In this document: piece by piece, positions 2 to 15,924 of the stretch
Layout of the letters: each line of letters opens with the position of its first letter
Position numbering within the stretch: the stretch's first letter is position 1
From: Methanomethylovorans sp.
Lineage (GTDB): Archaea > Halobacteriota > Methanosarcinia > Methanosarcinales > Methanosarcinaceae
NCBI GenBank assembly: GCA_020854785.1
Contig: JAHFZE010000116.1
Location: 1 to 15,924 of the forward strand
Length of the DNA stretch: 15,924 nucleotides
Reading direction: 5' to 3'
Program-made: the position numbers and the translations under genes
The notes under the pieces: model-generated
What the model was told of the DNA's origin: nothing
What the model saw: only the letters and a program-made list of their open reading frames with translations
Database searches by the model: none

Positions 2-211
2 GTGCTGAAAGGGAGGATCTATTTGGTTTCGCAGGTACCGGGGGAAGAAGGATTTATTGCCGATATTGAGCTGACCGAAGGAATGACATCAACATACAGG
101 GAAAAGATCAGGTTCATTCATGAAATGGATGGCACGGCTGATATTATTACCGGTAACAGCAGGTTGATTTACAGGTTTATAAAACCAATCAGAAGCCTGA
201 TTGATCAATGA
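2..211 (+). CDS. HlyD-family secretion adaptor, C-terminal part (partial)
   Basis: The reading frame is open at the left edge and ends at the TGA at 209-211, so only the last 69 residues are visible. GFIADIELTEGM, followed by MDGTADIITGNSRLIYRFI and a short tail, is the pattern of the C-terminal beta-barrel and membrane-proximal end of HlyD / bacteriocin-secretion accessory proteins. In that family the mature protein is a periplasmic adaptor that links an inner-membrane ABC exporter (often with a C39 peptidase domain) to an outer-membrane channel. The true start lies outside the window; the first in-frame ATG here would be internal. It sits upstream, in the same direction, of a decayed GG-leader peptide gene, which fits a peptide-export locus. 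The family call rests on motif memory only, and the exporter partner cannot be seen. Confidence 0.72.
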   Translation: MLKGRIYLVSQVPGEEGFIADIELTEGMTSTYREKIRFIHEMDGTADIITGNSRLIYRFIKPIRSLIDQ

Positions 212-893: not shown

Positions 894-933
894 GACGATT
901 TTTGATGATTTTTGACGGTTTTTGATTGGTTTA
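894..933. repeat. Four 10-bp tandem units with phased T-tracts
   Basis: The units GACGATTTTT, GATGATTTTT, GACGGTTTTT and the degenerate GATTGGTTTA follow one another without gaps from 894 to 933. Three T5 tracts are thereby spaced exactly 10 bp apart, near one helical turn, which is the known arrangement for intrinsically bent DNA. It lies just after the small HTH gene and upstream of the leader-peptide relic. Confidence 0.6.
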
Positions 934-999
934 TTACCAATTATTTTCAACGACATAGCCGAAATTTGTATTGTATTATATGAATATTTTGAAAGAAAA

Positions 1000-1142
1000 G
1001 GGCAGTTTAAAGCAGGGAGCATACGGCTGAGGGCAGGGTGCAAAAGAAATAAAACAATTGTAGAAGATAATATCGTTCTTGATCCCTCACCCCATACCCT
1101 TTGCCCCGAGCCATCTGCCCGGACCTTTCCATAACAGAAAGG
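1000..1142 (+). promoter_or_regulatory. G-run / C-run leader with a small hairpin upstream of the broken GG-leader gene
   Basis: GGGCAG occurs at 1000-1005 and again at 1031-1036, and CTGCCC at 1115-1120 can pair with either. Between them lie further C-rich stretches. Immediately after comes a hairpin, CCTTTC (1124-1129), loop CATAACA, GAAAGG (1137-1142), followed by GAGGTTAATGG. A closely similar layout with the shared string ATAACAGAAAGG precedes the intact precursor at 14863, so it probably belongs to the 5' untranslated leader of these peptide genes. Whether it acts as an attenuator, a processing site or a terminator is not known. The remaining bases 873-1223 hold no gene that I can support. 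Confidence 0.45.
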
Positions 1143-1223
1143 AGGTTAATGGCAAAGATATTTTATTTTAATCAGTTTGGCAGACTGGCAAAATGATTGT
1201 TTAAAATCTTAAAACGTACAATT

Positions 1224-1303
1224 ATGAAGAAATTAAGAAACTTCAAATCAACCCTGAAAAATTGATGAACAATGAAGAGTTGACTACTCTTAGAGGTGGG
1301 TAA
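1224..1303 (+). pseudogene. Broken GG-leader RiPP precursor: leader only, frameshifted, core lost
   Basis: The ATG at 1224 opens a frame that fails after 13 codons. One frame over, without a stop, the DNA encodes KKLQINPEKLMNNEELTTL followed by RGG, ending at 1300. This closely matches the leader of the intact precursor at 14863 (KKLNINPERLMKNEELKSI then RGG). Restoring a single A in the AAA run at 1230-1232 would put ATG AAG AAA ATT AAG in frame with it, so a one-base deletion explains the damage. Directly after the Gly-Gly codons comes TAA, which belongs to the fused IS66 fragment, so no core peptide remains. The product would have been a double-glycine leader for a C39-type exporter. Confidence 0.82.
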
Positions 1304-1602
1304 ATCGCTACTCCCGCCAAACCATCCATTTACAGTCGATGCCGGGATAAATACTCCTGCAAGCTTAAACATCGCGATTGAGCGGTGAAAAGGAAGATGA
1401 TAGACATATTTACCTATCAATAGTTCTGCCAGTAAACTCGCTCAGGCATTACTCCGGGGAAGTGGTAAGAGTGGAAGTGCTGCAATCTTCATATTCTTCT
1501 GCCCGCTCTCTTCATTTTCTTCCCGAAGTTGCTGCAAGTCTTTTCTCAATGCGTGTTTCGGACGAACGATGCCACGAACGTAAAGCTCACCCGGCTTATG
1601 CT
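1301..1602 (-). pseudogene. IS66-family TnpC fragment (middle part), reverse strand
   Basis: Read on the minus strand from 1600 down to about 1301, the sequence encodes HKPGELYVRGIVRPKHAL, then PLLPLPRSNA, a TGA stop, ASLLAELLIGKYVYHLPFHR, and FKLAGVFIPASTVNGWF with SSDL. This is the middle of an IS66 transposase: compare KFYVEKYVRPKYVFPKE and QFKRQDIDIAESTISGWF in the intact copy at 9694. The in-frame stop replaces a Gly codon in the conserved NAG motif. The piece is cut on its C-terminal side at the leader Gly-Gly (1300) and on its N-terminal side by the IS1634-type inverted repeat at 1603. The catalytic residues are not present. Confidence 0.82.
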
Positions 1603-3599
1603 CTAGCGTGAGTTTATCACGGGATGAGGTCTAAAACGCTGTAACATACAGGTAAACATAAAGATAGTGATCATTTATTTGTATACACCAACATCTTTGA
1701 TTTTGGGTTGTTGATTGTGGACGTTTTCTATACCTAAAGCGGTTATAATCTTATTCTCAGCTTCGGTCATCTGCTCAAGCATATAAGTGGCTTTTGGTTT
1801 ACCGGTCTTTTTCGATTCCTCTAACATTGTTCCAAGTCTGATATTATTGAGCATATCCAATAAATTATCCAGACTTCCGGTATAACTGGCCTTTAACCTT
1901 GCCTCTCTCCAGATAATACTGGATAACAGATATCCAATCACACAGATAAAATAATGCACCTTTATCTGCTGGTTGGTCCAGTGATACTGAGGCTTCAGGG
2001 CTAAATGATATGGGTTCTTCATGTTCCTGAAAGCATGTTCAATTTTAGATTGGCCATAATACGCGGTAATAATATCCTGACTGGTCCATTCATGCCTGTT
2101 AGTCATAATAATCCTGAAGCCAAGTTTCTCTTCAACATGGTGTAGTTGCTCCTGATCAATCTTGTAGTCCAGATAGTATTTTCCTTCTCCTGTCTGAATC
2201 AATTTCCATTTAAGGATATCTTTTAAGTATTGACCCGCTGCTATGGTTTTGATCTTTTTTTCTAACTCCTCCCGGTTCCGTTTTTTTCCACTTGGGTTTG
2301 CAAGCGCCTGCTGAAGTTTTTTAAGACTCTCTTGCTTTTTAGCAAGGCTTTGATATACGCCCCGGATCTGGCCTGCCTTTAACCGATCTGATATAAATAC
2401 CAGGATCGTTTTTTCATCTTCCCATATCGTGCTTTTTTCACGATATACAGCCAATGACTCATTGATTATTCTTATGGTGGACATCGCTTCCGTTGCCCTT
2501 TCAATGATCTCTGTATGATGATAAGGTGTTAAGGCTCCCACATAATAGAACCCTAAGCTGTTCACAATATCAAGATTCTTCTTCGAGTTGTTCCCGCGAT
2601 CGAAAACCAATGTATGAGTATCCTGGTTCAGCCCTAATGATAGCATGCGGTCTTTAATCTTCCCGATGACCTCTTTGAAAACGGTGACATCCTGTAGATT
2701 GCCCTGATAACTGTGATGAAACAAAGGGATATAGTCTTCTTTGCTGACAACCATGGCAAGGCCCACTTGTCGCAGGTCATCTCTTTTTTGCTTATTCTTG
2801 CCTCGTTGGGCAATATCACAGTGATCGTTCGTGGTGTCGATGTAGGTGAAAAAATTGGTCGTGTCATAAAACAAGGTATCTGTACGGATCTTATAGACTT
2901 CAAGCAAACGTGTCAATATTTCCTGCTCGGCAGAAGATATGGCATCTTCCGGAAAGCTGTCCATTAAATCCCAAAAATGCTGACTGTCAACCTTGCTCAA
3001 ATTACAGCGCAGAAGATATTCTACAGATGTGGTCTTTGCCCAGTTCCACCATCCCATCTTACTGGTAGGCATACATACACGCCCGATGGCTCCCAGAACA
3101 AAGGTGATGCCTGTGGTTAAATTATTCCTTACCGGCTTGTCTGCAACATATTGGCGGGAAGATTTAACATACTTATTCAAAATGCTGATAATATCCAGAC
3201 GTGCTGCAACATCTATTAAGGCGCTGACACCACCATGAGAATATGACTTGAGTTTATGTGTATGAAGTCCCTGCAGGCGTTTTAACAGGTCATCTGCTTT
3301 GCCAAGATAAGCCAGAACAATCGGTCTTGGTTTGCCGTTAACTCTTCTGGACTCTACAATATACCAGTACTTGTAACCCTTTGTTGTCTTGCTTTGAATT
3401 GTAGCCATAATTGGTATATACTAATGATATATAAATACAATTATCCACTACATATTAATTCATTGCAAAATTAGTTATTAACATTAGTTAGTGTATACAC
3501 ACTTCTCATCAAAAAATGCAAATATATCTGACTGATATTCAATCGATTTCATTGGTGAATAAATTTTGTAAATTGAGTTTTATAATAAACTCACGCTAG
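1603..3599 (-). mobile_element. IS1634-type insertion sequence, complete
   Basis: Terminal inverted repeats CTAGCGTGAGTTTAT (1603-1617) and ATAAACTCACGCTAG (3585-3599) match over 15 bp and enclose one transposase gene, giving about 2.0 kb. The flanks differ: an IS66 fragment lies to the left and an IS4-type transposase fragment to the right, and I see no matching target duplication. The element therefore either moved and then lost flanking DNA, or mediated a deletion or recombination with another copy. The outermost base of the repeat may be off by one or two. Confidence 0.85.
1675..3408 (-). CDS. IS1634-family transposase
   Basis: This is a 577-aa DDE transposase and appears full length. 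The N-terminus (KYWYIVESRRVNGKPRPIV) is the usual IS1634 opening strand pair. The presumed catalytic acids are D182 in LFYDTTNFF, D270 in LVFDRGNNSKKN and E457 in YGQSKIEHAFRNMK, the last being the family's Y-(2)-K/R-(2)-E-(3)-R-type signature. A lysine/glutamate-rich insertion (about residues 355-395) lies between the second and third acids, as expected for IS4-superfamily enzymes with a beta-strand or helical insertion. The start at 3408 (MATIQSK) is about 180 bp inside the right inverted repeat. No stop or frameshift is visible, so the element may still be active. Confidence 0.9.
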   Translation of the reverse strand: MATIQSKTTKGYKYWYIVESRRVNGKPRPIVLAYLGKADDLLKRLQGLHTHKLKSYSHGGVSALIDVAARLDIISILNKYVKSSRQYVADKPVRNNLTTGITFVLGAIGRVCMPTSKMGWWNWAKTTSVEYLLRCNLSKVDSQHFWDLMDSFPEDAISSAEQEILTRLLEVYKIRTDTLFYDTTNFFTYIDTTNDHCDIAQRGKNKQKRDDLRQVGLAMVVSKEDYIPLFHHSYQGNLQDVTVFKEVIGKIKDRMLSLGLNQDTHTLVFDRGNNSKKNLDIVNSLGFYYVGALTPYHHTEIIERATEAMSTIRIINESLAVYREKSTIWEDEKTILVFISDRLKAGQIRGVYQSLAKKQESLKKLQQALANPSGKKRNREELEKKIKTIAAGQYLKDILKWKLIQTGEGKYYLDYKIDQEQLHHVEEKLGFRIIMTNRHEWTSQDIITAYYGQSKIEHAFRNMKNPYHLALKPQYHWTNQQIKVHYFICVIGYLLSSIIWREARLKASYTGSLDNLLDMLNNIRLGTMLEESKKTGKPKATYMLEQMTEAENKIITALGIENVHNQQPKIKDVGVYK

Positions 3600-3926
3600 G
3601 GTAAAATACAGATCTTCAAAAAACTTATGATTCCTGTTGCGCAATCCGTCACATGCCGTACTCTTTGCTGGTGCCTGATCCATTCCAAGATGATTAAACT
3701 TACCGCCCATGGCCCGCAATCCTTCGCATATCTCGGTCATCGAATCACATCGGCTAAGTATCCCGAACAGCATCGTAAATAGGTGTGTGTGCGTCTTGAG
3801 TGACTTGTAATAGTAATCACTCTCGTGCTTACGGAGCAACCCTTGTATGTCAACTTTATCTACTAAATTCATAATCTGTTTGAAAATCGGCTGTCCGACT
3901 AATTTTATTTCCGTAATTTTACCCAT
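3591..3926 (-). pseudogene. IS4-family transposase (DUF4372-type), N-terminal fragment
   Basis: The start at 3926 gives 111 residues. GQPIFKQIMNLVDKVDIQ, then LRKHESDYYYKSLKTHTHLF, MLFGILSRCDSMTEICEGL and RNRNHKFFEDLYF are the N-terminal domain (DUF4372) of Bacteroidota IS4-family transposases. The last few residues and the stop come from the IS1634-type inverted repeat, so the catalytic domain is missing. The rest of this transposase is not found on the far side of the IS1634 element, which argues for loss of DNA after insertion. The element's outer end lies somewhere in 3927-4014, just before the IS630 copy. Confidence 0.85.
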
Positions 3927-4024
3927 GTTGTACGTGTTTTAGCAAAAACCAAATTACAACATTGGTGGAAACCTTTGGGGAGTATCCCTCTTATTTATTA
4001 TTTTAGTCGGACACTAGTGTTATG

Positions 4025-4690
4025 TCAATTATGTATTGACGGATAAAGTCGATGTAATTTCACCCTAGCGTCTTTTGTTGTAAACTGCCATTTTATTCTT
4101 GCGTCTTTATTGTTTCTGTGGTTTTGCCAGGCCTTCACTTCTTCTCTGACCGTTTTTATGTTGTCAATTCTTCTGTTCAAGCATTGTTTTGTCAATACGT
4201 TCAATTCTATTTCAGCCATATTTAACCAACTACCATGTTTTGGCGTATATACAAATTCCAGACGATCCCATATTCTTTTTGCCTCAGAAGGTTCAAAGGT
4301 TTCATATAACGCAGCAGCACTGTGTGAAGCCAGATTATCCATCACTAATGTTATCATTTCTGCCGCAGGATATAGCTTGTCACAAATAAAACGGACCAAT
4401 ATTGCCCAGTCATTCTTGGTTCTCTGGTTGGTAACTTTGGTGAAACGCTTTCCTGCAAGGGGCTCATTTACCATAAAAACATTGCACACCCCGGAACGGG
4501 AATACTCATAATCCACCTTTTTTTCAAATCCAGGTCTTATTGGTAATGACTTACGAACCTCTTTTATCAATTGCTTTGGAGTTTCATCCATACATACCAC
4601 TGGCCTTGCTTTATCATATGGCCGTTTGTAAACATCAAGTACTTGCTCCATTGCTGCTACAAAATGACTGTTTTCCCGGGGAGGAATCAC
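4025..4690 (-). CDS. IS630 transposase, downstream ORF (DDE catalytic half)
   Basis: From the first ATG at 4690 this is 221 aa, but the conserved frame reaches further upstream (SWVIPPRE), so the ATG is probably not the natural start. The catalytic triad is visible as D35 in VCMDETPKQL, D118 in LVMDNLASHS and E160 in WLNMAEIELNVL, the spacing expected of IS630. The normal product is a fusion with the ORF at 4699-5175, made by -1 frameshifting at the A8 run. The C-terminus runs into the left inverted repeat. No other damage is seen. Confidence 0.87.
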   Translation of the reverse strand: MIPPRENSHFVAAMEQVLDVYKRPYDKARPVVCMDETPKQLIKEVRKSLPIRPGFEKKVDYEYSRSGVCNVFMVNEPLAGKRFTKVTNQRTKNDWAILVRFICDKLYPAAEMITLVMDNLASHSAAALYETFEPSEAKRIWDRLEFVYTPKHGSWLNMAEIELNVLTKQCLNRRIDNIKTVREEVKAWQNHRNNKDARIKWQFTTKDARVKLHRLYPSIHN

Positions 4691-4698
4691 CCAACTCT

Positions 4699-5175
4699 TT
4701 ACTCTCCAAGATTTAAGTTCGTTTTTTTTAGAACCTTCCTGACTGTCTCGTGCGATATGTCTTCAACGTACTCCAATTCTACCATACGATCCGCCAATAG
4801 TCTCAAGGACCATTTGCCATATCCTTTAGGTGGTTCACTGCAGGCTATCGAAATTAACCGAGCCTCCGTTTCTCCATCAACCTTTTTGCGGTATATCCTA
4901 CTTGTCGGGGCTACACCCAGAGCAGCATCAAGGCCTTCCAGTACGAACCGTTGCTTTACTCTGTCAATGGTTCGCATTCCAATCTTTAATACTTTACAAA
5001 CATCTTCATTGGTTTGCGGTTTTTCTGCAAACCTACCCTGGTCTGCATTAAGAAGAATGAGAGAATGGATGACCTTCTTGGCTGTATGGCTGCCCTTCCT
5101 GGTATTTTCCATTAGTGTTTCTCTTTCTTTTTTGGTTAGAGTTACTTTGTACTTTATCATAGCATTTTTTGACAA
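4699..5175 (-). CDS. IS630 transposase, upstream ORF (DNA-binding half)
   Basis: A 158-aa protein starts at 5175. It holds the N-terminal helix-turn-helix region (QTNEDVCKVLKIGMRTIDRV, about residues 55-75) and the second winged part (KWSLRLLADRMVELEYVEDI, then HETVRKVLKK) of IS630/Tc1-type transposases. The frame ends at 4699, shortly after an A8 run (T8 at 4722-4729 on the plus strand). Slipping back by one base on A-AAA-AAA continues into KNELKSWRVKSWVIPPRE, the normal family sequence, and joins the next ORF. The DDE half therefore needs a -1 frameshift, either programmed or caused by a one-base indel. Confidence 0.85.
   Translation of the reverse strand: MSKNAMIKYKVTLTKKERETLMENTRKGSHTAKKVIHSLILLNADQGRFAEKPQTNEDVCKVLKIGMRTIDRVKQRFVLEGLDAALGVAPTSRIYRKKVDGETEARLISIACSEPPKGYGKWSLRLLADRMVELEYVEDISHETVRKVLKKTNLNLGE
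4722..4730 (-). promoter_or_regulatory. A8 slippery run joining the two IS630 frames
   Basis: On the minus strand the message reads CTA AAA AAA ACG. The A-AAA-AAA heptamer lies in the correct phase for a -1 slip, after which the codons AAC GAA CTT AAA TCT TGG restore the family sequence KNELKSW. The site lies at the usual domain boundary. I did not identify a clear stimulatory pseudoknot by eye. Confidence 0.6.
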
Positions 5176-5252
5176 AGATACAGAAAATATTTATTGCGTT
5201 ATACTATTATTGACATGACACTAGTGAAAGACTATAGTAATTTATTTCCAAT

Positions 5253-6005
5253 ATGATACAGAAACTAAACATTAATGACTTTACAATCCTTATACTTATT
5301 CGTTTGGATTCTATACATCGGCTAGAAAACATATTGGCAGTGTCAGAGTATTTGACTTCTAATATTGAAGCTGATTTTATGGTGCTTGAATCGTCTTCTT
5401 ATGATAATGGTTTGTTAAAAAAGCTATTCAATAAGAAAATTCGATATTCATTTCAGGAGGATAATGACCCAATACTCTATAGAACTAAATTATTAAACCA
5501 AATGGCTAGTCAAGTTGAAACTCCTTATTTTGCATGCTGGGATGCGGATGTAATAATCCCTATAGGTCAGATTGCTAAAGCAGTTGAACTTCTAAGAAAT
5601 AACATGACTGATTTTGTATACCCTTATGAGGAGCTATTTTTAGACACTTCACTTATTTTAAGAAAGTTATTTCTAATTGAAAAAACAAGTTTAGTTTTAG
5701 AAAAAAATATAAAAAAAATGGCGGCTATGTATTTACCAAATCCTCTTGGAGGTGTTTTCTTAGCCAGACTTGATAAATATAAAGAGGCAGGACTTGAAAA
5801 TGAAAATTTTTATGGTTGGGGTATGGAAGATGGAGATAGATATTATAGGTGGATTAATATGGGATACAGAGTAAACAGAATTCATGGTCCTCTATTTCAT
5901 TTGAGTCATGTCAGAGGAATAAATAGCCAGTATCACAATGAGGATCAAAAATTTATTAAGGAAAAGATGGTCCTAAACGTAAAACGGAATAAAGAAAATG
6001 GTTGA
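5253..6005 (+). CDS. Galactosyltransferase-like family 2 glycosyltransferase, RiPP-associated
   Basis: This is a 250-aa GT-A fold enzyme. The opening strand (FTILILIRLDSIHRLENI) is the nucleotide-sugar binding start, and WDAD at residues 96-99 is the DxD metal/sugar-phosphate motif. GGVF (166-169) and FYGWGMEDGD (186-195) form the C-terminal acceptor and catalytic signature of beta-1,4-galactosyltransferase-like proteins, followed by a putative metal-ligand histidine pair in LFHLSH (216, 219). No signal peptide or membrane span is seen, so it should be cytoplasmic. It is 28 bp ahead of the LanC-like gene in an operon-like pair; in Bacteroidota such pairs occur with GG-leader peptides, so a peptide substrate is plausible but not shown. 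The IS630 copy ends 30 bp upstream, so its promoter is likely altered. The donor sugar cannot be read from the sequence. Confidence 0.82.
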   Translation: MIQKLNINDFTILILIRLDSIHRLENILAVSEYLTSNIEADFMVLESSSYDNGLLKKLFNKKIRYSFQEDNDPILYRTKLLNQMASQVETPYFACWDADVIIPIGQIAKAVELLRNNMTDFVYPYEELFLDTSLILRKLFLIEKTSLVLEKNIKKMAAMYLPNPLGGVFLARLDKYKEAGLENENFYGWGMEDGDRYYRWINMGYRVNRIHGPLFHLSHVRGINSQYHNEDQKFIKEKMVLNVKRNKENG

Positions 6006-6033
6006 ATCAATTCTTTAAGTAGTTCTTCTTATT

Positions 6034-7080
6034 ATGAGCGAAGTTACAATCAAAATCCCGGAAATTGTCCAAAAGAGCCTGTTCAAAGTCACAAATCAGG
6101 GTTTGTTTCATGGCAACACAGGACTATGTATCTACTTTTATCATTTAGCCAGATACACTAAAAAAGCTAAGTATAATGCCATTGCATCTGATTTGATTGA
6201 TAAGGTTTTTAAAAACATGAATTCTGCTGTTCCAATAGACTTCGAGAATGGACTTGCAGGTATTGGGTGGGGAATAGAATATCTGATTCAAAACAACTTC
6301 GCAAACGGTGATACGGATGATTTGCTTGAAGACGTTGACGACAGAGTATTTAAATATTTAATTGAAAATGAACATAAATCGTTTGAGGTTACTACAGGAT
6401 TAACAGGATGTCTCTTATACCTAATAAGCAGATTGAGGAATAAACCTAGATCAAATACTATGGCACAAAAGATTAACCATGATTTGTTGATTTTTACAAT
6501 AAATATAATTGATGGTCTGGTAGCTGCTCAATTATACACAGTTATTAAGGATAAATATTTTGACCTTATGTGGAGATTCCCTATAATGTTGTTTGGATTA
6601 ACTTCTGCATTCAGGCAAAACTTATATAGTGAAAAGATTTCCAATATGATTAGACAGTGGGGAACAACCATTGAATCCTACGTTCCTACTATTCAAATAA
6701 ATCGGCTGTATCTAGCAACAGCCCTTATGCAAATTTTATTTTGGATTCCTGAACAAAAATTGGAAAAGCATATCAGATTGCTATTATTTGGAACAGATTT
6801 TAAATTAATTCCAACAGAATTGGATCCAACTCTTTTTAATCTCCGTTTTGGTCTGCCAGGTGTTGTACTAATTTTAAATCTGGCTATTAAGTTTATCCCA
6901 ACAAGTTTTCCAAATTATCTGCAAATAATATCTACCAATCAAGACCTCATGAAAAGATATGATGCCGAGTTAAAGAAACATATTTCTAAAATAAATCCAA
7001 CCACACAGCAAATAGGACTATGCGAAGGTATCTCAGGAGTAAGCCTATATAGTCTTATTGCCGAAGGTTGCACTAAATAA
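6034..7080 (+). CDS. LanC-like protein (lanthionine synthetase C-like fold)
   Basis: The product has 348 residues. GLFHGNTGLCIYFYHLARYT near residue 25, FENGLAGIGWGIEYLI around residue 75, TTGLTGCLLYLISRL near residue 125, LRFGLPGVVLIL, and GLCEGISGVSLYSLI at the end are the repeated Gly-rich helical hairpins of the LanC alpha/alpha barrel. In true LanC cyclases zinc is held by a Cys in a WCxG motif and by a Cys-His pair. Here the final motif reads C330-E331, with Glu where His is expected, and I find no WCxG. The zinc site thus looks incomplete, and lanthionine ring closure should not be assumed. It is probably co-transcribed with the preceding glycosyltransferase. No LanB or LanM dehydratase is in the window. 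The C-terminus is slightly short for the family. Confidence 0.8.
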   Translation: MSEVTIKIPEIVQKSLFKVTNQGLFHGNTGLCIYFYHLARYTKKAKYNAIASDLIDKVFKNMNSAVPIDFENGLAGIGWGIEYLIQNNFANGDTDDLLEDVDDRVFKYLIENEHKSFEVTTGLTGCLLYLISRLRNKPRSNTMAQKINHDLLIFTINIIDGLVAAQLYTVIKDKYFDLMWRFPIMLFGLTSAFRQNLYSEKISNMIRQWGTTIESYVPTIQINRLYLATALMQILFWIPEQKLEKHIRLLLFGTDFKLIPTELDPTLFNLRFGLPGVVLILNLAIKFIPTSFPNYLQIISTNQDLMKRYDAELKKHISKINPTTQQIGLCEGISGVSLYSLIAEGCTK

Positions 7081-8325: not shown

Positions 8326-8897
8326 TCCATTTGGAACTATTGACACAGCGGGTTTTTCAGATAGCAGCAGGTTAGGAGGATTGCAATGTTTGTAATGATC
8401 TTCGTGAAGATATGATATATAAAATGTGTGCAGGGCGATTGCCTCAAAGCGACAGCGATTTAGCATTTCAACCTACAATGAGTCGACTGGAAAACACAGT
8501 TACAAAGACCGATCTGCTTCGGTTGGGTAAGTGTTTGGTAGACATCTTTATAAATTCGTACTCAAACGCACCTTCTGTCATCATTTTAGATTGTGATGAT
8601 ACCAACAATGATACTTATGTGCAACAAGAACTGGCATTATTCAACAACTATTATAACGAGTACTGCTACATGCCCTTACATATTTATGAAGGATTATCGG
8701 GAAAGCTGATAACCACCATTTTAAAACCTGGTTACCGGAACAAACAAGCCAATATTGCCAGACTATTACAAAAACTGGTATCGTACCTTCGTGCGCAGTG
8801 GCCAAAAACAAAGATTATAGTGCGCGGGGACAGCCATTTTGCATCGCAGGATGTTATGGATTGGACATGGATCCAGCCTGATGTTGACTTTATCACC
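8326..8897 (+). pseudogene. IS1380-family transposase pseudogene, first part
   Basis: In one frame from about 8340: LTQRVFQIAAG, a TAG stop at 8373-8375 (where Tyr is expected in GYEDCN), EDCNVCNDLREDMIYKMCAG, RLPQSDSDLAFQPTMSRLEN, then VIILDCDDTNNDTY (catalytic Asp), YMPLHIYEGLSGKLITTILK and IIVRGDSHFASQDVMDW (second Asp). This is an IS1380 transposase without its first roughly 90 residues. The N-terminus is replaced by the IS110 remnant at a junction between 8322 and 8340. At 8897 it is split by an IS66 element and resumes at 11265 in the same frame. Confidence 0.88.
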
Positions 8898-8968
8898 GTA
8901 ACCCTTCGGTCTGATGCATATTGTTCTTCCTGATTTGGCAAAATAATTTTGGATCCAAAACCGGTCAT

Positions 8969-9256
8969 ATGAAAAATCAGGAACGGATCAGCCGCCAGGA
9001 AGAGATGTTGTCCCTTATCGGGAGGTGGCAGGAAAGCGGTAAAACCCAGCAAGCATTTTGTCAGGAACACGGTCTAACCTATACAACATTTTATTATTGG
9101 CTTAAGCGTTATCGACGGGAACTTGACGAAAGCAACTTTCTTCCTGTCGAGATTAGTTCAGGATCACATATTGAGATCCGTTACCCGGGAGGAATAATTT
9201 TACAATTACCGGCCGCCACAAAACTCTCCATAGTAAAGCAGCTGTTAACTCTGTGA
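8969..9256 (+). CDS. tnpA: IS66 TnpA accessory protein
   Basis: The probable start is the ATG at 8969 (MKNQERISRQEEMLSLIGRW), giving 95 residues; an in-frame ATG at 8921 lies inside the terminal repeat region and is unlikely. The protein carries a helix-turn-helix of the kind in IS66 OrfA and IS3-like OrfA: WQESGKTQQAFCQEHGL followed by FYYWLKRYR. The C-terminal part (IEIRYPGGIILQLPAATK) is the typical small beta domain. It is required with TnpB and TnpC for transposition in the family. It ends 14 bp before tnpB. Confidence 0.88.
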   Translation: MKNQERISRQEEMLSLIGRWQESGKTQQAFCQEHGLTYTTFYYWLKRYRRELDESNFLPVEISSGSHIEIRYPGGIILQLPAATKLSIVKQLLTL

Positions 9257-9270
9257 GATGATCTAAAGAG

Positions 9271-9639
9271 ATGTTTTCACTCAGTTCCACCTTCCGGTAC
9301 TATTTCTATAATTCAGCTACCGACATGAGAAAAGGTTTCGATGGCTTGTGCGGGCTTGTACATGTTGAACTGGGTCGCCGGCCTGTACGCGGAGAGGTAT
9401 TCATCTTTGTCAATCATCAGCGTGATAAGATAAAAATGCTTCACTGGGAACAAGGTGGATTTGTGTTGTATTATAAGCGGCTTGAGCGTGGAACTTTCGA
9501 GCTGCCAAGGGTCAGTTTCCAGGGCAAAACATGTCAGATCAGCTGGTCGTCGTTGATGCTTATGGTAGAAGGTATTTCTATTGAAAAATACAAGCAAAGA
9601 CGTCGATATTTTATTAACAATTTTCCTGCGGCGTCTTAA
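9271..9639 (+). CDS. tnpB: IS66 TnpB accessory protein
   Basis: This 122-aa protein has the IS66 Orf2 pattern: YFYNSATDMRKGFDGLCGLV, then RGEVFIFVNHQRDKIKMLHW and GFVLYYKRLERGTFELP. Its role in transposition is accessory and its biochemical function is not well defined in the family. It lies between tnpA (14-bp gap) and tnpC (54-bp gap) in one transcription unit. The start MFSLSSTFRYYF matches the usual N-terminus, and no damage is visible. Confidence 0.92.
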   Translation: MFSLSSTFRYYFYNSATDMRKGFDGLCGLVHVELGRRPVRGEVFIFVNHQRDKIKMLHWEQGGFVLYYKRLERGTFELPRVSFQGKTCQISWSSLMLMVEGISIEKYKQRRRYFINNFPAAS

Positions 9640-9693
9640 TAAAAACCCCTGAAAATATTAGGGTTACAGATCTATTTTTGTCATTTTTGCGAT

Positions 9694-11199
9694 ATGCAGA
9701 ACGGGCAGGCAGCATATCAGGTAAACAGACCAATCTCAGAGGAAGAATACCTGTTTCTCCAAAAGGAAAACACTGAGTTGTCAGAGAAGGTTGCCAATCT
9801 TACTGCAGAGCTTTTATACTATAAGCAGGAACTTGCCCAGCTTAAGAGAATGATCTTTGGCAGTAAGAGTGAGAGGCATATCGGTTCTGATCCCTCGCAA
9901 TTAAACTTGGGACTGGATATTGAAACAGTTGAACAACCTGAAACAGAAACACAGCAGATAACCTATACACGCAGTAAGTCAGATAATAAAAAAGGTTCAG
10001 CCATACGTCTTGCCTTACCGTCACACCTTCACCGTGAAGAACATATCATTGAACCGCAGGAAGATATTACCGGTGCCCGCAAGATCGGAGAAGTTGTAAC
10101 AGAGGTTCTTGAATACACCCCGGGGAAGTTTTACGTTGAGAAGTATGTTCGCCCAAAATACGTGTTTCCCAAAGAGGAAAGAATTGTTATCGGAGAGCTT
10201 CCATCGTTTCCTATACCAAGAGGTAATGCAGGACCTGGCCTGCTGGCACATCTTCTAATCAGCAAGTTTGTTGATCATTTGCCTTTTTACCGGCAGGTAC
10301 AGCAGTTCAAGCGGCAGGATATTGACATAGCAGAATCGACAATCAGCGGATGGTTTACAGCTTCGTGCCGCCTGCTGGAACCATTATACGAAAGGTTAGT
10401 TGCAAGGATACGAGGCAGCGGTTACCTGATGGCTGACGAGACGCCGATCCCGGTCCAGACCAAAGACAAACCAGGTTCTACTCATAAGGGGTACCATTGG
10501 GTCTATTATGCACCACTGGAAAAACTTGTCTGCTTTGATTACCGGAAAGGACGTGGACGGGACGGTCCACAGAAGTTCCTTGAGTCGTTCCGGGGCATGC
10601 TTCAGACTGATGGTTATAATGCATACGACATATACGAGAAAAAAGAGGGCATAACTTTATATGGATGCATGGCCCATTCAAGACGGAAGTTCGAGAACTC
10701 AAAGGATAGTGATCCCCGAAGAGCTGAATATGTCCTTGAACGAATGCGGAAGTTGTATATGATTGAGCGTGAAGCGAAGGAGAATAACTTATCATCTGAT
10801 CAGAGAAAAGAGCTTCGGACAGAACAATCGATACCAGTATTGCAGGAGTTGGAGAGGTGGATGAAAGAACAATTACCGGAAGTACTTCCAAAGAGTTCAA
10901 TTGGACAGGCTATAGCATACACTCTGGGATTATGGCCCAGATTAACCAGATATACCCAAAATGGTCAGGTTGAGATAGACAATAATCTCATTGAGAACAG
11001 TATCAGACCGGTGGCCCTGGGTCGAAAGAACTACCTGTTTGCCGGTTCACACGAGGCAGCTCAGCAGGCAGCGATGATATACTCATTCCTGGGTACCTGC
11101 AAGATAAATAATGTCGAACCATACACCTGGTTAAAAGATACCCTGACCCGCATCCAGGATCATTCAATCCTGAAACTAGATGAGCTACTACCCCACTGA
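9694..11199 (+). CDS. tnpC: IS66 TnpC transposase
   Basis: This is a full-length 501-aa DDE transposase. An N-terminal coiled-coil-like stretch (about residues 20-55, ELSEKVANLTAELLYYKQEL) leads into the zinc-finger/helical region. The conserved QQFKRQDIDIAESTISGWF segment is followed by the catalytic acids D248 in LMADETPIPV, D306 in LQTDGYNAYD and E434 in NLIENSIRPVALGRKNYLF. The C-terminal WLKDTLTRIQ and the DELLPH ending are usual. The ORF ends 57 bp before the right end of the element. No frameshift is visible, so the copy may be active. Confidence 0.95.
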   Translation: MQNGQAAYQVNRPISEEEYLFLQKENTELSEKVANLTAELLYYKQELAQLKRMIFGSKSERHIGSDPSQLNLGLDIETVEQPETETQQITYTRSKSDNKKGSAIRLALPSHLHREEHIIEPQEDITGARKIGEVVTEVLEYTPGKFYVEKYVRPKYVFPKEERIVIGELPSFPIPRGNAGPGLLAHLLISKFVDHLPFYRQVQQFKRQDIDIAESTISGWFTASCRLLEPLYERLVARIRGSGYLMADETPIPVQTKDKPGSTHKGYHWVYYAPLEKLVCFDYRKGRGRDGPQKFLESFRGMLQTDGYNAYDIYEKKEGITLYGCMAHSRRKFENSKDSDPRRAEYVLERMRKLYMIEREAKENNLSSDQRKELRTEQSIPVLQELERWMKEQLPEVLPKSSIGQAIAYTLGLWPRLTRYTQNGQVEIDNNLIENSIRPVALGRKNYLFAGSHEAAQQAAMIYSFLGTCKINNVEPYTWLKDTLTRIQDHSILKLDELLPH

Positions 11200-11264: not shown

Positions 11265-11837
11265 GGTCTAACAGGCAATGCAAAACTCCACGAACTGGTA
11301 CAGGTTACCATTGAAAGTGCTCAAAGATACTTCAATCAATACCAAAAACCTGTAAAACGTTACCATTCATTTATGTACAAAGCCGGAAGCTGGGAAAACT
11401 ACCAACGGGTTATCGTGAAAGCTGAGGTAAGCACAATTGGAATCAACATCCGCTATATCGTTACCAGTCTTAACGATTTTCGTACCCGTAATTTATACGA
11501 GAAAGGCTACTGTGCCCGTGGTTCAATGGAGCTACGCATAAAAGATCATAAGTTGTACCTCAAGTCTGACCGGTCATTTTGCACGAAATTTACAGCCAAC
11601 CAGTTTCGCTTGTTCCTGCACTCAATGGCATATACTCATACATACCTTGCAGAAGGAAGTATTAAAAAAAGCGAGTATGCCAACGCAACCATGTAAACAA
11701 TCCAGCTCAAGATCATTAAAACAGCCGCCTGGGTTAAAGAGATGAGAACCAAAATAAAAATAGAGCTACCCCAATTTTGCACGACAAAAGGCGAACAAAT
11801 CAGAGGTTATGAGAGATTAATCGTGCTTCGAACTTAG
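11265..11837 (+). pseudogene. IS1380-family transposase pseudogene, second part
   Basis: Directly after the second TTATCACC copy the IS1380 frame resumes: GLTGNAKLHELVQVTIESAQ, RYFNQYQKPVKRYHSFMYKA, VIVKAEVSTIGINIRYIVTS, YEKGYCARGSMELRIKDHKL (catalytic Glu region) and NQFRLFLHSMAY. A TAA at 11694-11696 interrupts it, but TIQLKIIKTAAWVKEMRTKI and KIELP continue in frame to a final TAG at 11835-11837, so the TAA is a nonsense mutation (probably AAA or CAA to TAA). With the TAG in the first part, the gene had at least two stops in addition to the IS66 insertion, so it was probably dead independently of it. The 3' end of the element lies somewhere in 11838-12108. Confidence 0.9.
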
Positions 11838-12108: not shown

Positions 12109-13308
12109 ATGAAAAGAAAATCTAAGTTCTTAATATCAATGCTAGTTTTAACAACTTTCTTAACATACTGTAAAAGTTCAAACCTTGAACTAGCTGAAAT
12201 TAATCCAACTGATTCACTTATAACTTATGATCTGAAAGTGTTACCCGAACGGACAACTTTGAAACTAACTGATCTAGGTGCAATAGACATTCAGTATATT
12301 CCCTTGGAAACAACTGAACAAAATGTTATGACAGGTATTCAGAAAATTATCAAGAGCAGAAATTTTTTTCTGATAAGAAATAATTCAGACATATATATGT
12401 TTCGATTTGATGGCTCTTTTGTTACCAAAATAGGAATCCGTGGGAGAGGGCCAGATGAATTCACAGTAGTTCATGATGTAGAAGTTAATCCCCAGAATGA
12501 AACAATATATCTAATCGATGGATGGCAACAAAAATTCTTGGTTTATTCAAATACTGGTGAATTAATCAGGACTTTTAAATATCCTCTTCGTGCTTCAGTT
12601 GATTTCGAATTTACGGAGGATGGGATCCTTTGTTATAATCGTAATAGCATGGGTGATATTGAAACAAGTTTCATTCTGATAGATACAATGGGCACGATAT
12701 TAAGAAGCTTTCCAAATAAGTATCCGTGGATTAGAAACTTTCCTACATCTGCATTCCCAAGTGAAAATATCTTTTATCATTACGGAGATCGTCTTATAAA
12801 AAAGGAAATATACTGCGATACTTTATATATTTATAAAAACAAAGACTTTAGACCATATACAATTATTGATATAGGCGATCGACGTTTATCTCCAAAAATA
12901 AGAACAGAATATGATTTTCTATCTATAGATCAAAATTGTTTAATACAAAAGACTTTGTTCGAATTTGCAGAATACTTGTATTACAGATTTGGTGTGTATT
13001 ATGATGGTAGAATTGAAGGATTATCATTTATTGGATCAAAAGATGGTAATCTTCAGATATTACTTGATCCCGAAAAAGACTTAATCAATGACCTTGATTG
13101 CGGGCCAAATATCTTGCCCAGGACTGCATGGGATGATTCTACAGTCGTTTCCTGGATTGATGCATTTGAACTTAAGACATTTGTAAATTCAGAATTCTTC
13201 AAAAACAAAAAGCATAATAATCCTAAAATGAAAGAGGAGATTATAAAATTAGCTGACAAACTTAAAGACATTGACAATCCTGTCTTGATATTTATAAAAT
13301 TTAAATAA
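12109..13308 (+). CDS. 6-bladed beta-propeller lipoprotein
   Basis: This is a 399-aa protein. The N-terminus MKRKSKFLISMLVLTTFLTY has a charged start, a hydrophobic core and Cys21, consistent with a lipoprotein signal, although Tyr just before the Cys is atypical of a lipobox. The body follows the Bacteroidota 6-bladed beta-propeller family: DIQYIPLETTEQNVMTGIQK, FLIRNNSDIYMFRFDGSFV, then GIRGRGPDEFTVVHDVEVNP and TIYLIDGWQQKFLVYSNTGE, which are the repeated NHL/Kelch-like blade strands. It would sit in the periplasm or on the outer membrane. Its biochemical role is unknown; such genes are often found near GG-leader peptide loci in the phylum. AGGAGA lies only 1 bp before the ATG, an unusual spacing. 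It stands alone between IS remnants and is intact. Confidence 0.82.
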   Translation: MKRKSKFLISMLVLTTFLTYCKSSNLELAEINPTDSLITYDLKVLPERTTLKLTDLGAIDIQYIPLETTEQNVMTGIQKIIKSRNFFLIRNNSDIYMFRFDGSFVTKIGIRGRGPDEFTVVHDVEVNPQNETIYLIDGWQQKFLVYSNTGELIRTFKYPLRASVDFEFTEDGILCYNRNSMGDIETSFILIDTMGTILRSFPNKYPWIRNFPTSAFPSENIFYHYGDRLIKKEIYCDTLYIYKNKDFRPYTIIDIGDRRLSPKIRTEYDFLSIDQNCLIQKTLFEFAEYLYYRFGVYYDGRIEGLSFIGSKDGNLQILLDPEKDLINDLDCGPNILPRTAWDDSTVVSWIDAFELKTFVNSEFFKNKKHNNPKMKEEIIKLADKLKDIDNPVLIFIKFK

Positions 13309-14862: not shown

Positions 14863-15114
14863 ATGAAAAATCTTAAAAAATTAAACATCAATCCTGAAAG
14901 ATTGATGAAGAATGAAGAACTAAAATCTATAAGAGGTGGAGAGGGAAGCTCAGAGTGGGCTTTGTGCAAGGCCTATTACTATGATTCTATAGTAACCTTA
15001 GGAAGTGTATGTGTATCTAATTGTACTCCACAAGAAGCAATGGAGGCTTGCATCGGTTTATATCCTGGTACATATATTGCACAATGTACTAGTATAAATT
15101 GTTCACCGGAGTGA
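14863..15114 (+). CDS. GG-leader RiPP/bacteriocin-like precursor peptide, six core cysteines
   Basis: This is an 83-aa precursor. Residues 1-26 form a leader (MKNLKKLNINPERL, then MKNEELKSIRGG) of the Bacteroidota double-glycine type, normally cut after Gly-Gly by a C39 peptidase-exporter. The 57-residue core begins EGSSEWALCKAYYYDS and contains six cysteines (ALC, SVC, SNC, EAC, AQC, INC), a YYY run and many Ser/Thr, and ends CSPE. Cysteines could form disulfides or be modified; Ser/Thr could be glycosylated or dehydrated. The adjacent exporter gene is dead, and a glycosyltransferase/LanC-like pair lies 8 kb upstream, so processing would need proteins from elsewhere. The start is fixed by leader homology with the dead copy at 1224. 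A terminator-like palindrome follows 92 bp after the stop. Confidence 0.88.
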   Translation: MKNLKKLNINPERLMKNEELKSIRGGEGSSEWALCKAYYYDSIVTLGSVCVSNCTPQEAMEACIGLYPGTYIAQCTSINCSPE

Positions 15115-15241: not shown

Positions 15242-15594
15242 ATTTAGTATGAATCAATTACTCTATTTAAACATCTTTAACAGTATGCTTGATTGGCTTG
15301 CATCGAGAAAGAATGAAAAACACTTGTAAAAAGCAAGATCATAGAATGATGTATCCATTGATAATGAAATAGAAATAAAAGTCAAGACCATTCTTTTTTT
15401 GATGACATTTAAGTGGCAAAAGAATCATATAATCATTTTCTATTCTATAATACTCTTACTATACTCTTTAAGTTTTGTTATATTTTCTTTGTAAGTATGC
15501 ACTTTTATTAATTGATGAGTAGTTTAATAAAAAAGTTGTCTAACATTATATTTTTATAAATCATTTACTATGAGTTATTAAGAATTCCATCTGT
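15242..15594. other. A/T-rich intergenic region before the C39 relic
   Basis: I find no gene. Only very short frames occur (for example MLDWLASRKNEKHL at about 15292). The region is strongly A/T-rich with several T-runs. TTTG-like motifs around 15474-15493 could contribute to a promoter for the downstream exporter gene, but none matches the TTTG / TAnnTTTG pair at correct spacing. Confidence 0.5.
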
Positions 15595-15789
15595 ATGAAA
15601 TTTTATCATTTTTCACAGCAGGATTCAAGGGATTGTGGTCCGACATGTCTTCAGATGATATCTAAATACTATGGAAAGACGTATTCATTATAATACTTGC
15701 GGACAAAATCATTCACTACTAAATTAGGTGTCTCAATGCTCAACATAAGTGATACTGCTGAAAGTATAGGTTTTCGTACACGCGGTGTC
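15595..15789 (+). pseudogene. C39 peptidase-containing ABC exporter, N-terminal relic with nonsense codon
   Basis: From ATG at 15595: MKFYHFSQQDSRDCGPTCLQ, MISKYYGKTYSL, TAA (15691-15693), then YLRTKSFTTKLGVSMLNISD and TAESIGFRTRGV. This is the first 65 residues of a C39 bacteriocin-processing domain. The catalytic Cys is C14 in QDSRDCGPTC, with Gln8 or Gln9 as the expected oxyanion-hole residue. The TAA sits where Gln is usual, so CAA to TAA explains it. Homology ends at 15789; beyond it another sequence starts, and the His/Asp half of the peptidase, the membrane domain and the ATPase are gone. The intact gene would have cut and exported GG-leader peptides such as the one at 14863. Confidence 0.88.
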
Positions 15790-15812
15790 TTAACCCCCTA
15801 TAACCTGGACAG
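15786..15812. mobile_element. Possible IS3-like terminal repeat at the exporter breakpoint
   Basis: Where C39 homology stops, the sequence reads TGTCTTAACCCCC then TATAACCTGGACAG. The TG start, a C-run at about position 9 and GGACAG near position 22-27 resemble IS150/IS3-group ends (TG...CACCC...TTGGACAG). No OrfA or OrfB sequence is visible before the window ends, so this is a guess from the end sequence and position. Confidence 0.3.
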
Positions 15813-15924
15813 ATTTTTCAAAAGAATATAGAACTTCTTGTTTGATGTTCTCGTTATTTTCATTCATCATCCGATCAGCAAAGTTAGCCGTATCTCTGGA
15901 TTTGTCAAGAGCAAGGCGAGTGTC
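15790..15924 (-). CDS. Unknown protein, C-terminal 44 residues (partial)
   Basis: A minus-strand frame enters from beyond the right edge and stops at TAA (15790-15792). It reads LALDKSRDTANFADRMMNEN, NENIKQEVLYSFEKSVQVIG, G. The amphipathic, Asn/Glu/Lys-rich look suggests real coding sequence rather than chance, but I do not recognise a family. It ends exactly at the exporter breakpoint, so it could be carried by the element that truncated the exporter. Confidence 0.35.
   Translation of the reverse strand, partial: DTRLALDKSRDTANFADRMMNENNENIKQEVLYSFEKSVQVIGG

Follow-up and report, generated by a model that had tools for sequence, protein, structure and literature searches.

Zinc-less LanC-like proteins paired with and fused to glycosyltransferases in GG-leader peptide clusters

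A LanC-like protein without the zinc site of the lanthionine cyclases, encoded directly behind a glycosyltransferase (GT) gene, raises the question of what such a pair does. The pair lies in a stretch of 15,924 nucleotides (the window), which is the entire contig C254 of a 2.06 Mb bin. A sequence-only reading of the window had proposed a two-gene unit that might act on GG-leader peptides, with the LanC-like protein perhaps as a scaffold or leader-recruiting protein rather than a ring-closing enzyme. Comparison with related loci suggests that GG-leader RiPP clusters of Bacteroidota contain a probable peptide-glycosylation module made up of a zinc-less LanC-like protein and an adjacent GT, in which the LanC fold is reused as a non-cyclase partner.

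The window and its gene pair

The upstream gene of the pair encodes a member of the Glyco_transf_7C (GT7C) family (PF02709; 29 bits against a cut-off of 23), and no NCBIfam model scored above its cut-off. Its motifs are WDAD (residues 96-99) and WGMEDGD (189-195), in which W96, D97, D99, W189, G190, E192 and D193 were invariant in an alignment of 21 sequences. Beta-4-galactosyltransferase 7 was the best sequence-profile match among solved structures (E=2.5e-6, profile A2), over the WGWGxED region and spanning only about 90 residues. The initial description of a beta-galactosyltransferase-like gene with these motifs 28 bp ahead of the LanC-like gene, both on the forward strand, was confirmed (Table 1).

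The downstream protein matched LANC_like (PF05147) over residues 19-146 (E=1e-13, 51.1 bits against a cut-off of 23.2), and its NCBIfam matches were lanthipeptide synthetases. The Cys-gap-Cys-His zinc triad of LanC-type lanthionine cyclases was missing: as had been read from the sequence, the CHG site holds Cys-Glu (CEG, Cys330-Glu331) and the WCxG site holds LRFG (Arg271). This loss is a family-wide trait, beyond the window copy. Neither WCxG nor CHG occurred in any of the 120 homologues listed from a search of 5.8 billion proteins, of which P0091 stops short of both sites and P0092 short of the second. An alignment of 88 homologues had no column with Cys in at least 50% of sequences; His reached that level at three positions (26, 37 and 221), none of which is a zinc-ligand position.

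Around the pair, the GG-leader peptides noticed earlier amounted to one intact copy (14863-15114) and one broken copy (about 1224-1300). The broken copy has a disturbed reading frame, a stop directly after GG and no core. The intact precursor consists of a 26-aa leader and a 57-aa core with 6 Cys, 7 Ser and 4 Thr; it scored 16.1 bits against TIGR04149, the model for rSAM-modified precursors, below the curated cut-off of 25. No LanB or LanM match was found among the window ORFs scanned (some small ORFs lay outside the scan), in keeping with the reported lack of a dehydratase near the pair, and the window therefore did not qualify as a class I lanthipeptide locus. The rSAM profile had no match in the window, and Lant_dehydr_N had none in a search of the whole bin, a search that gave no match in its controls either.

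The window is a decaying RiPP island riddled with insertion sequences, and it may no longer make a product. Pieces of IS1634, IS4, IS630, IS110, IS1380 and IS66 interrupt it. The IS1380 transposase is in two parts (8412-8933 and 11373-11696), apparently split by the insertion of an IS66 element (8921-11199) that lies between them. Both ORFs of the pair are full length, with the family-invariant residues kept.

Table 1. Features of the window, LanC-GT fusions in relative loci and the element upstream of GG-leader genes
Feature	Location	Strand	Detail
HlyD-like membrane fusion protein, C-terminal end, cut by contig edge	window, 2..211	+	local HlyD profile positions 362-430 of 431, E=2.7e-26
Broken GG-leader remnant	window, 1224..1303	+	leader profile E=1.4e-9; sequence and three-frame translation
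GT, Glyco_transf_7C (beta-4-galactosyltransferase-like)	window, 5253..6005	+	250 aa; DxD (WDAD) and WGxED motifs
LANC_like protein without cyclase zinc triad (Arg271; Cys330-Glu331)	window, 6034..7080	+	348 aa
6-bladed beta-propeller protein (DUF5128), a type that occurs in these clusters	window, 12109..13308	+	local propeller profile E=1.8e-77
GG-leader precursor, intact	window, 14863..15114	+	83 aa; leader profile 38.4 bits
C39-peptidase ABC exporter, broken N-terminus	window, 15574..15828	+	in-frame stop; similarity ends near 15795
TAACAGAAAGG element, upstream of GG-leader genes	window 1132, 14748; L081 4103, 5855 (-); L097 643		
LanC-GT4 fusion	L046, L055		
GT2-LanC fusion	L043, L049, L054, L064		
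GT2-LanC-GT7C fusion	L052		

Among the proteins encoded in the bin is a ribosomal protein uL3 of 337 aa. The 50S L3P chains of the archaeal ribosome entries 1s72 and 1jj2 are among its best solved relatives, and this resemblance indicates that the bin is archaeal. GC content was 37.6% in the window and 38.4% in contig C257, against 42-50% in 13 other contigs, a 14th consisting of N throughout. Most probably the window is a Bacteroidota contig that was mis-binned into an archaeal MAG; transfer of the island into an archaeon is conceivable as well. Searches around the bin's own taxonomy gave only the window itself at family and order level and 9 of 392 at phylum level, and are uninformative on Bacteroidota because the bin is archaeal.

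C257 (locus L081) is also likely mis-binned, with Bacteroidota-type RiPP genes and about 38% GC like the window, with which it apparently shares its source. It encodes VKOR-thioredoxin, two GG precursors, two propellers, a C39 exporter and the start of an HlyD. Since the HlyD N-terminus lies at 1-198 of C257 and an HlyD C-terminus at the start of the window, the two contigs may adjoin in the source genome. All five GG-leader genes on the window, C257 and contig C174 (locus L097) have TAACAGAAAGG about 90-120 nt upstream. It sits within a small inverted repeat, CCTTTCC...GAAAGG in most of the five copies, and is a candidate for a shared regulatory or 5' leader element.

Pairing and fusion in relative loci

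One scan of 84,980 genomes yielded 67 relative loci, nearly all labelled Bacteroidota; L062 is labelled Oscillospiraceae yet is approximately the same as L061. These loci contained 83 zinc-less LanC-like ORFs, 65 of which had a GT neighbour or fusion in an unrestricted tally. When the count was limited to the 65 zinc-less ORFs flanked on each side by 900 bp or more, a GT was adjacent or fused in 53 with duplicate loci kept (such as L052/L053 and L061/L062), in 54 when L054, whose GT2 part was shown by Pfam, was included, and in 49 of 60 after clustering at 85%, which removed the duplicates. ORFs shorter than 60 aa or less than 900 bp from a locus end do not enter these counts, nor do L001, L002 and L070, which represent the window itself. 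The paired genes were closely packed: 69 of 73 spacings were at most 50 bp, the median was -4 bp and 42 pairs overlapped. There was no adjacent or fused GT for 12 of the 65 ORFs (11 once L054 is counted as fused), and 8 of the 67 loci, including the long stretches L007, L010 and L028, had no GT by local profiles. WCYG and CHG were present in all eight zinc-type LanC ORFs of the loci; of these, three had a LanB neighbour, two a GT neighbour and three neither.

The reverse test started from the GT. Ten whole genomes, picked for holding LanC-like genes, contained nine places that matched the GT7C profile at E<=1e-10. Eight of them either lay no more than 160 bp from a LanC-like match or shared a frame with one, whereas about 8 kb separated the ninth (G514:C3) from such a match. 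Zinc state was considered for six of the eight partners, all but those at G517:C44:5326 and G508:C1:4234695. An earlier, indirect count of co-location (35 of 69 LanC homologues on contigs of at least 2.5 kb, among the best 90 matches listed) is superseded by the loci.

Gene order was constant among the nearest relatives. L003-L006, with 47-49% identity in the best segment, all carried GT7C, LanC-like and GT2 genes in this order, and L003 and L004 showed the arrangement C39 exporter - HlyD - GG precursor - GT7C - LanC-like - GT2. The exporter and HlyD were upstream in L006, with the GG precursor still further upstream, and the L005 locus was too short to show a precursor. At the place between HlyD and GT where L003 and L004 have their precursor, the window has only the broken leader; its third GT is lost or absent, as is the local precursor. 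The intact 14863 peptide is therefore only a candidate substrate of the pair. The neighbour of the LanC-like gene in more distant loci was mostly a GT4. The nearest loci with their GT7C-LanC-GT2 order, and GT4 elsewhere, point to a modular LanC-like/GT partnership rather than one fixed pair. The proposed partnership thus stood and the fixed two-gene unit did not. More broadly, the zinc loss on which the initial interpretation was built and the co-occurrence that had been set as its test held up, and they are extended here by fusions and by pairing across whole genomes.

Seven ORFs from six genomes had the zinc-less LanC domain fused to a GT. The L052 fusion unites the three genes of the nearest relatives in one protein. 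Pfam alone did not detect the LanC part of the L043 and L052 fusions. A search with the LanC part of L046 found 129 proteins, 120 of them listed; a GT domain was present in 109 of the 120, counting the query's own cluster, a fraction biased towards fusions because the query was itself a fusion and candidates were restricted by length. The 109 comprised 100 LanC-GT4 and 7 GT2-LanC proteins by local profiles, and P0343 (GT2) and P0350 (GT11) by Pfam.

A six-frame search gave GG leaders at E<=1e-3 in 34 of the 67 loci, compared to none of 20 control stretches, and a search of ORFs gave them in 39 loci at 9 bits or more. The expectation that the pair would recur with GG-leader precursors in other genomes was therefore borne out. 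Matches at E<=1e-3 were also seen to GT4 (51 loci), C39 exporter (35), VKOR (27), HlyD (23), GT2 (22), propeller (22), GT7C (21), rSAM (14) and LanB (6). With the same profiles the control gave zero throughout except for one propeller; it was small (20 stretches, 400 kb, three genomes), and the GG-leader and GT profiles had been trained on the same 67 loci. The control stretches were ordinary coding DNA, by chance poor in ABC exporters. The leaders of L003, L004 and L006 were missed by both the regular expression and the leader profile, and were visible as small ORFs. Among 36 chosen GG precursors, 30 matched TIGR04149 at E<=0.05, five matched NF038153 and three NF038158. Several Bacteroidales cores (precursors of L030, L035, L042, L050, L052 and L059) share a Cys cluster (CCxC) with an Asn/Ser/Gly-rich tail behind it, as in CCICGC...SSTTDNHGANTSGG.

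Many of the LanC domains were short: by our count, about 34 of the 83 zinc-less ORFs were only 201-250 aa, approximately half length. These forms lack the half with the zinc site; what they retain includes the first helical hairpins and a stretch reading GxGWGxEY. This stretch was strongly conserved in zinc-less LanCs (G78 in 72/73, W79 in 69/73, G80 in 68/73, Y83 in 70/73) compared to the same positions in zinc LanCs (0/8, 2/8, 0/8 and 0/8, respectively). Its retention in half-length forms suggests that the conserved surface is on the half without the zinc site.

Proposed role and rival explanations

Since zinc-less LanC-like proteins stand beside or are fused to GTs in many peptide clusters, they probably help attach sugars to small exported peptides. 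In the proposed pathway the LanC barrel would no longer close thioether rings; it would most likely bind the GG precursor, at its leader, its core or both, and present it to the GT for transfer of a sugar to side chains of the core. The product of a neighbouring GT2 or GT4 gene would act in the same pathway, for example in glycan extension, and the C39 exporter would then cut the leader at GG and export the product. Zinc loss, gene pairing, overlaps, fusions and the association with GG precursors and exporters are observations; the binding of leader or core, the transfer of sugar to the peptide, the order of these steps and the identity of the sugar are inferred.

The scaffold role had been read from the missing zinc. 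Zinc loss itself was upheld and is family-wide; as a sufficient argument it failed, since absence of zinc does not by itself exclude cyclisation: the cyclase domains of class III LanKC are also without zinc ligands, according to the part of PMC7268733 available to us. By analogy, the LanC-like protein might still be a cyclase, with its dehydratase encoded elsewhere and the GT as a secondary tailoring enzyme, and LanB and a zinc-type LanC do stand beside the zinc-less one in L022, L036, L047 and L052. Cyclisation is opposed more strongly by the scarcity of dehydratases (the LanB profile matched in only 6 of the 67), by the LanC domains of about half length, from which the active-site part is gone, and by the GT fusions. 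In the four loci named above, a separate zinc-type LanC accompanies the dehydratase. The precursor cores also differ in Cys (3 in L003, 1 in L004, 6 in L006 and 6 in the window) with Ser and Thr in all four, suggesting that ring chemistry is not their common theme, and a core with a single Cys, as in L004, cannot form internal thioether rings in number. Taken together, these results make a zinc-free cyclase quite improbable. The LanC-like/GT4 module beside LanB and a zinc LanC in the four loci suggests that glycosylated lanthipeptides may be one outcome.

A role in surface polysaccharide metabolism, instead of peptide modification, was also considered for the pair; the LanC-like protein would then be an alpha/alpha barrel resembling glycoside hydrolases of the endoglucanase type. 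PMC10352776, in the part available, took zinc-less Bacteroidales LanCs near CAZymes as likely endoglucanase-like, and some homologues of the window GT are named 'predicted glycosyltransferase involved in capsule biosynthesis' at source. The neighbours, however, are GG precursors, C39 exporters, HlyD and VKOR-thioredoxin, the NCBIfam matches are to lanthipeptide synthetases, and the active site of an alpha/alpha glycosidase would presumably not survive in the common half-length domains. We consider this explanation unlikely. There is a fair deal more to be said for the pair being an idle leftover of a decaying island in this organism, an explanation that is compatible with glycosylation in the family: leader and exporter are broken, and six kinds of insertion sequence are packed into 15.9 kb. 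Against this, both ORFs are intact, and C257, apparently from the same source, has an uninterrupted C39 exporter frame of 762 residues and two GG precursors. We regard the leftover as possible but somewhat doubtful. Beside the zinc-independent cyclase, a chance neighbourhood and an intact capsule locus were considered for the pair and set aside.

Peptide glycosylation by a LanC-like/GT module remains the preferred reading, and on balance we favour a wider form of it. A LanC lineage without metal, and often without about half of the barrel, may have become a general peptide-presenting subunit for RiPP GTs (GT7C, GT2, GT4 and GT11). Glycosylated GG-leader peptides would then be a widespread class in Bacteroidota, with the module added to plain, rSAM and lanthipeptide clusters. 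If true, some of the LanC-like proteins now discarded or left unclassified in genome mining would gain a function, and many glycosylated peptides of gut and environmental Bacteroidota would await study. It would also be a case of an enzyme fold turned into a partner that presents substrates.

Relation to known systems

The class I LanC cyclases and the LanC domains of LanM, LanKC and LanL share the Pfam family (PF05147) and the setting of GG-leader clusters with the window protein. The zinc-less family differs from them in lacking the zinc triad, in the rarity of a dehydratase, in its half-length forms and in its linkage or fusion to GTs. Glycocins of the sublancin/SunS type combine a GT, a precursor peptide and an exporter. 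The present loci would follow the same overall logic if the sugar goes onto the peptide: GT, GG precursor and C39 exporter occur together in one cluster, most clearly in L003 and L004, and the window has remnants of this set plus the intact 14863 gene. Unlike the glycocins, these systems, in which glycosylation is predicted, have a LanC-like partner and use a Glyco_transf_7C-like GT in the window and GT4, GT2 or GT11 in other loci. Ten glycocins had been identified by the time of PMC9576775, all from Bacillota, and the available part of that paper mentions no LanC.

Zinc-less LanCs in Bacteroidales clusters were already known. The accessible text of PMC10352776 (2023) describes rSAM + LanC clusters (BGC3-5) with a zinc-less LanC, tabulates 41 'rSAM + LanC + GlyS' areas, and places the zinc-less LanCs, as endoglucanase-like, outside lanthipeptide biosynthesis. 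BGC3-5 resemble the present loci in their zinc-less LanC, GG precursors and exporters, with glycosyltransferases in BGC3 and CAZymes in BGC5; they differ in that the same text reports neither a gene fusion nor a LanC-GT unit. In 2020, PMC7268733, in the part available, counted 1392 LanC-like proteins as 'remaining unclassified' and regarded them as possibly a RiPP class yet to be characterised; like most of the present loci, they lack a dehydratase, and a number lie among exporters and proteases. A description of LanC-like proteins as GT partners was not found in the literature searched, which covered titles and abstracts with subscription journals mostly outside the search.

The L052 locus of Bacteroides fragilis Q1F2 (932-5188) encodes a zinc-type LanC with Lant_dehydr_N (454.7 bits) and Lant_dehydr_C. 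This LanB-type dehydratase contrasts with PMC10352776, whose available text reports no LanB in the Bacteroidales genomes screened there.
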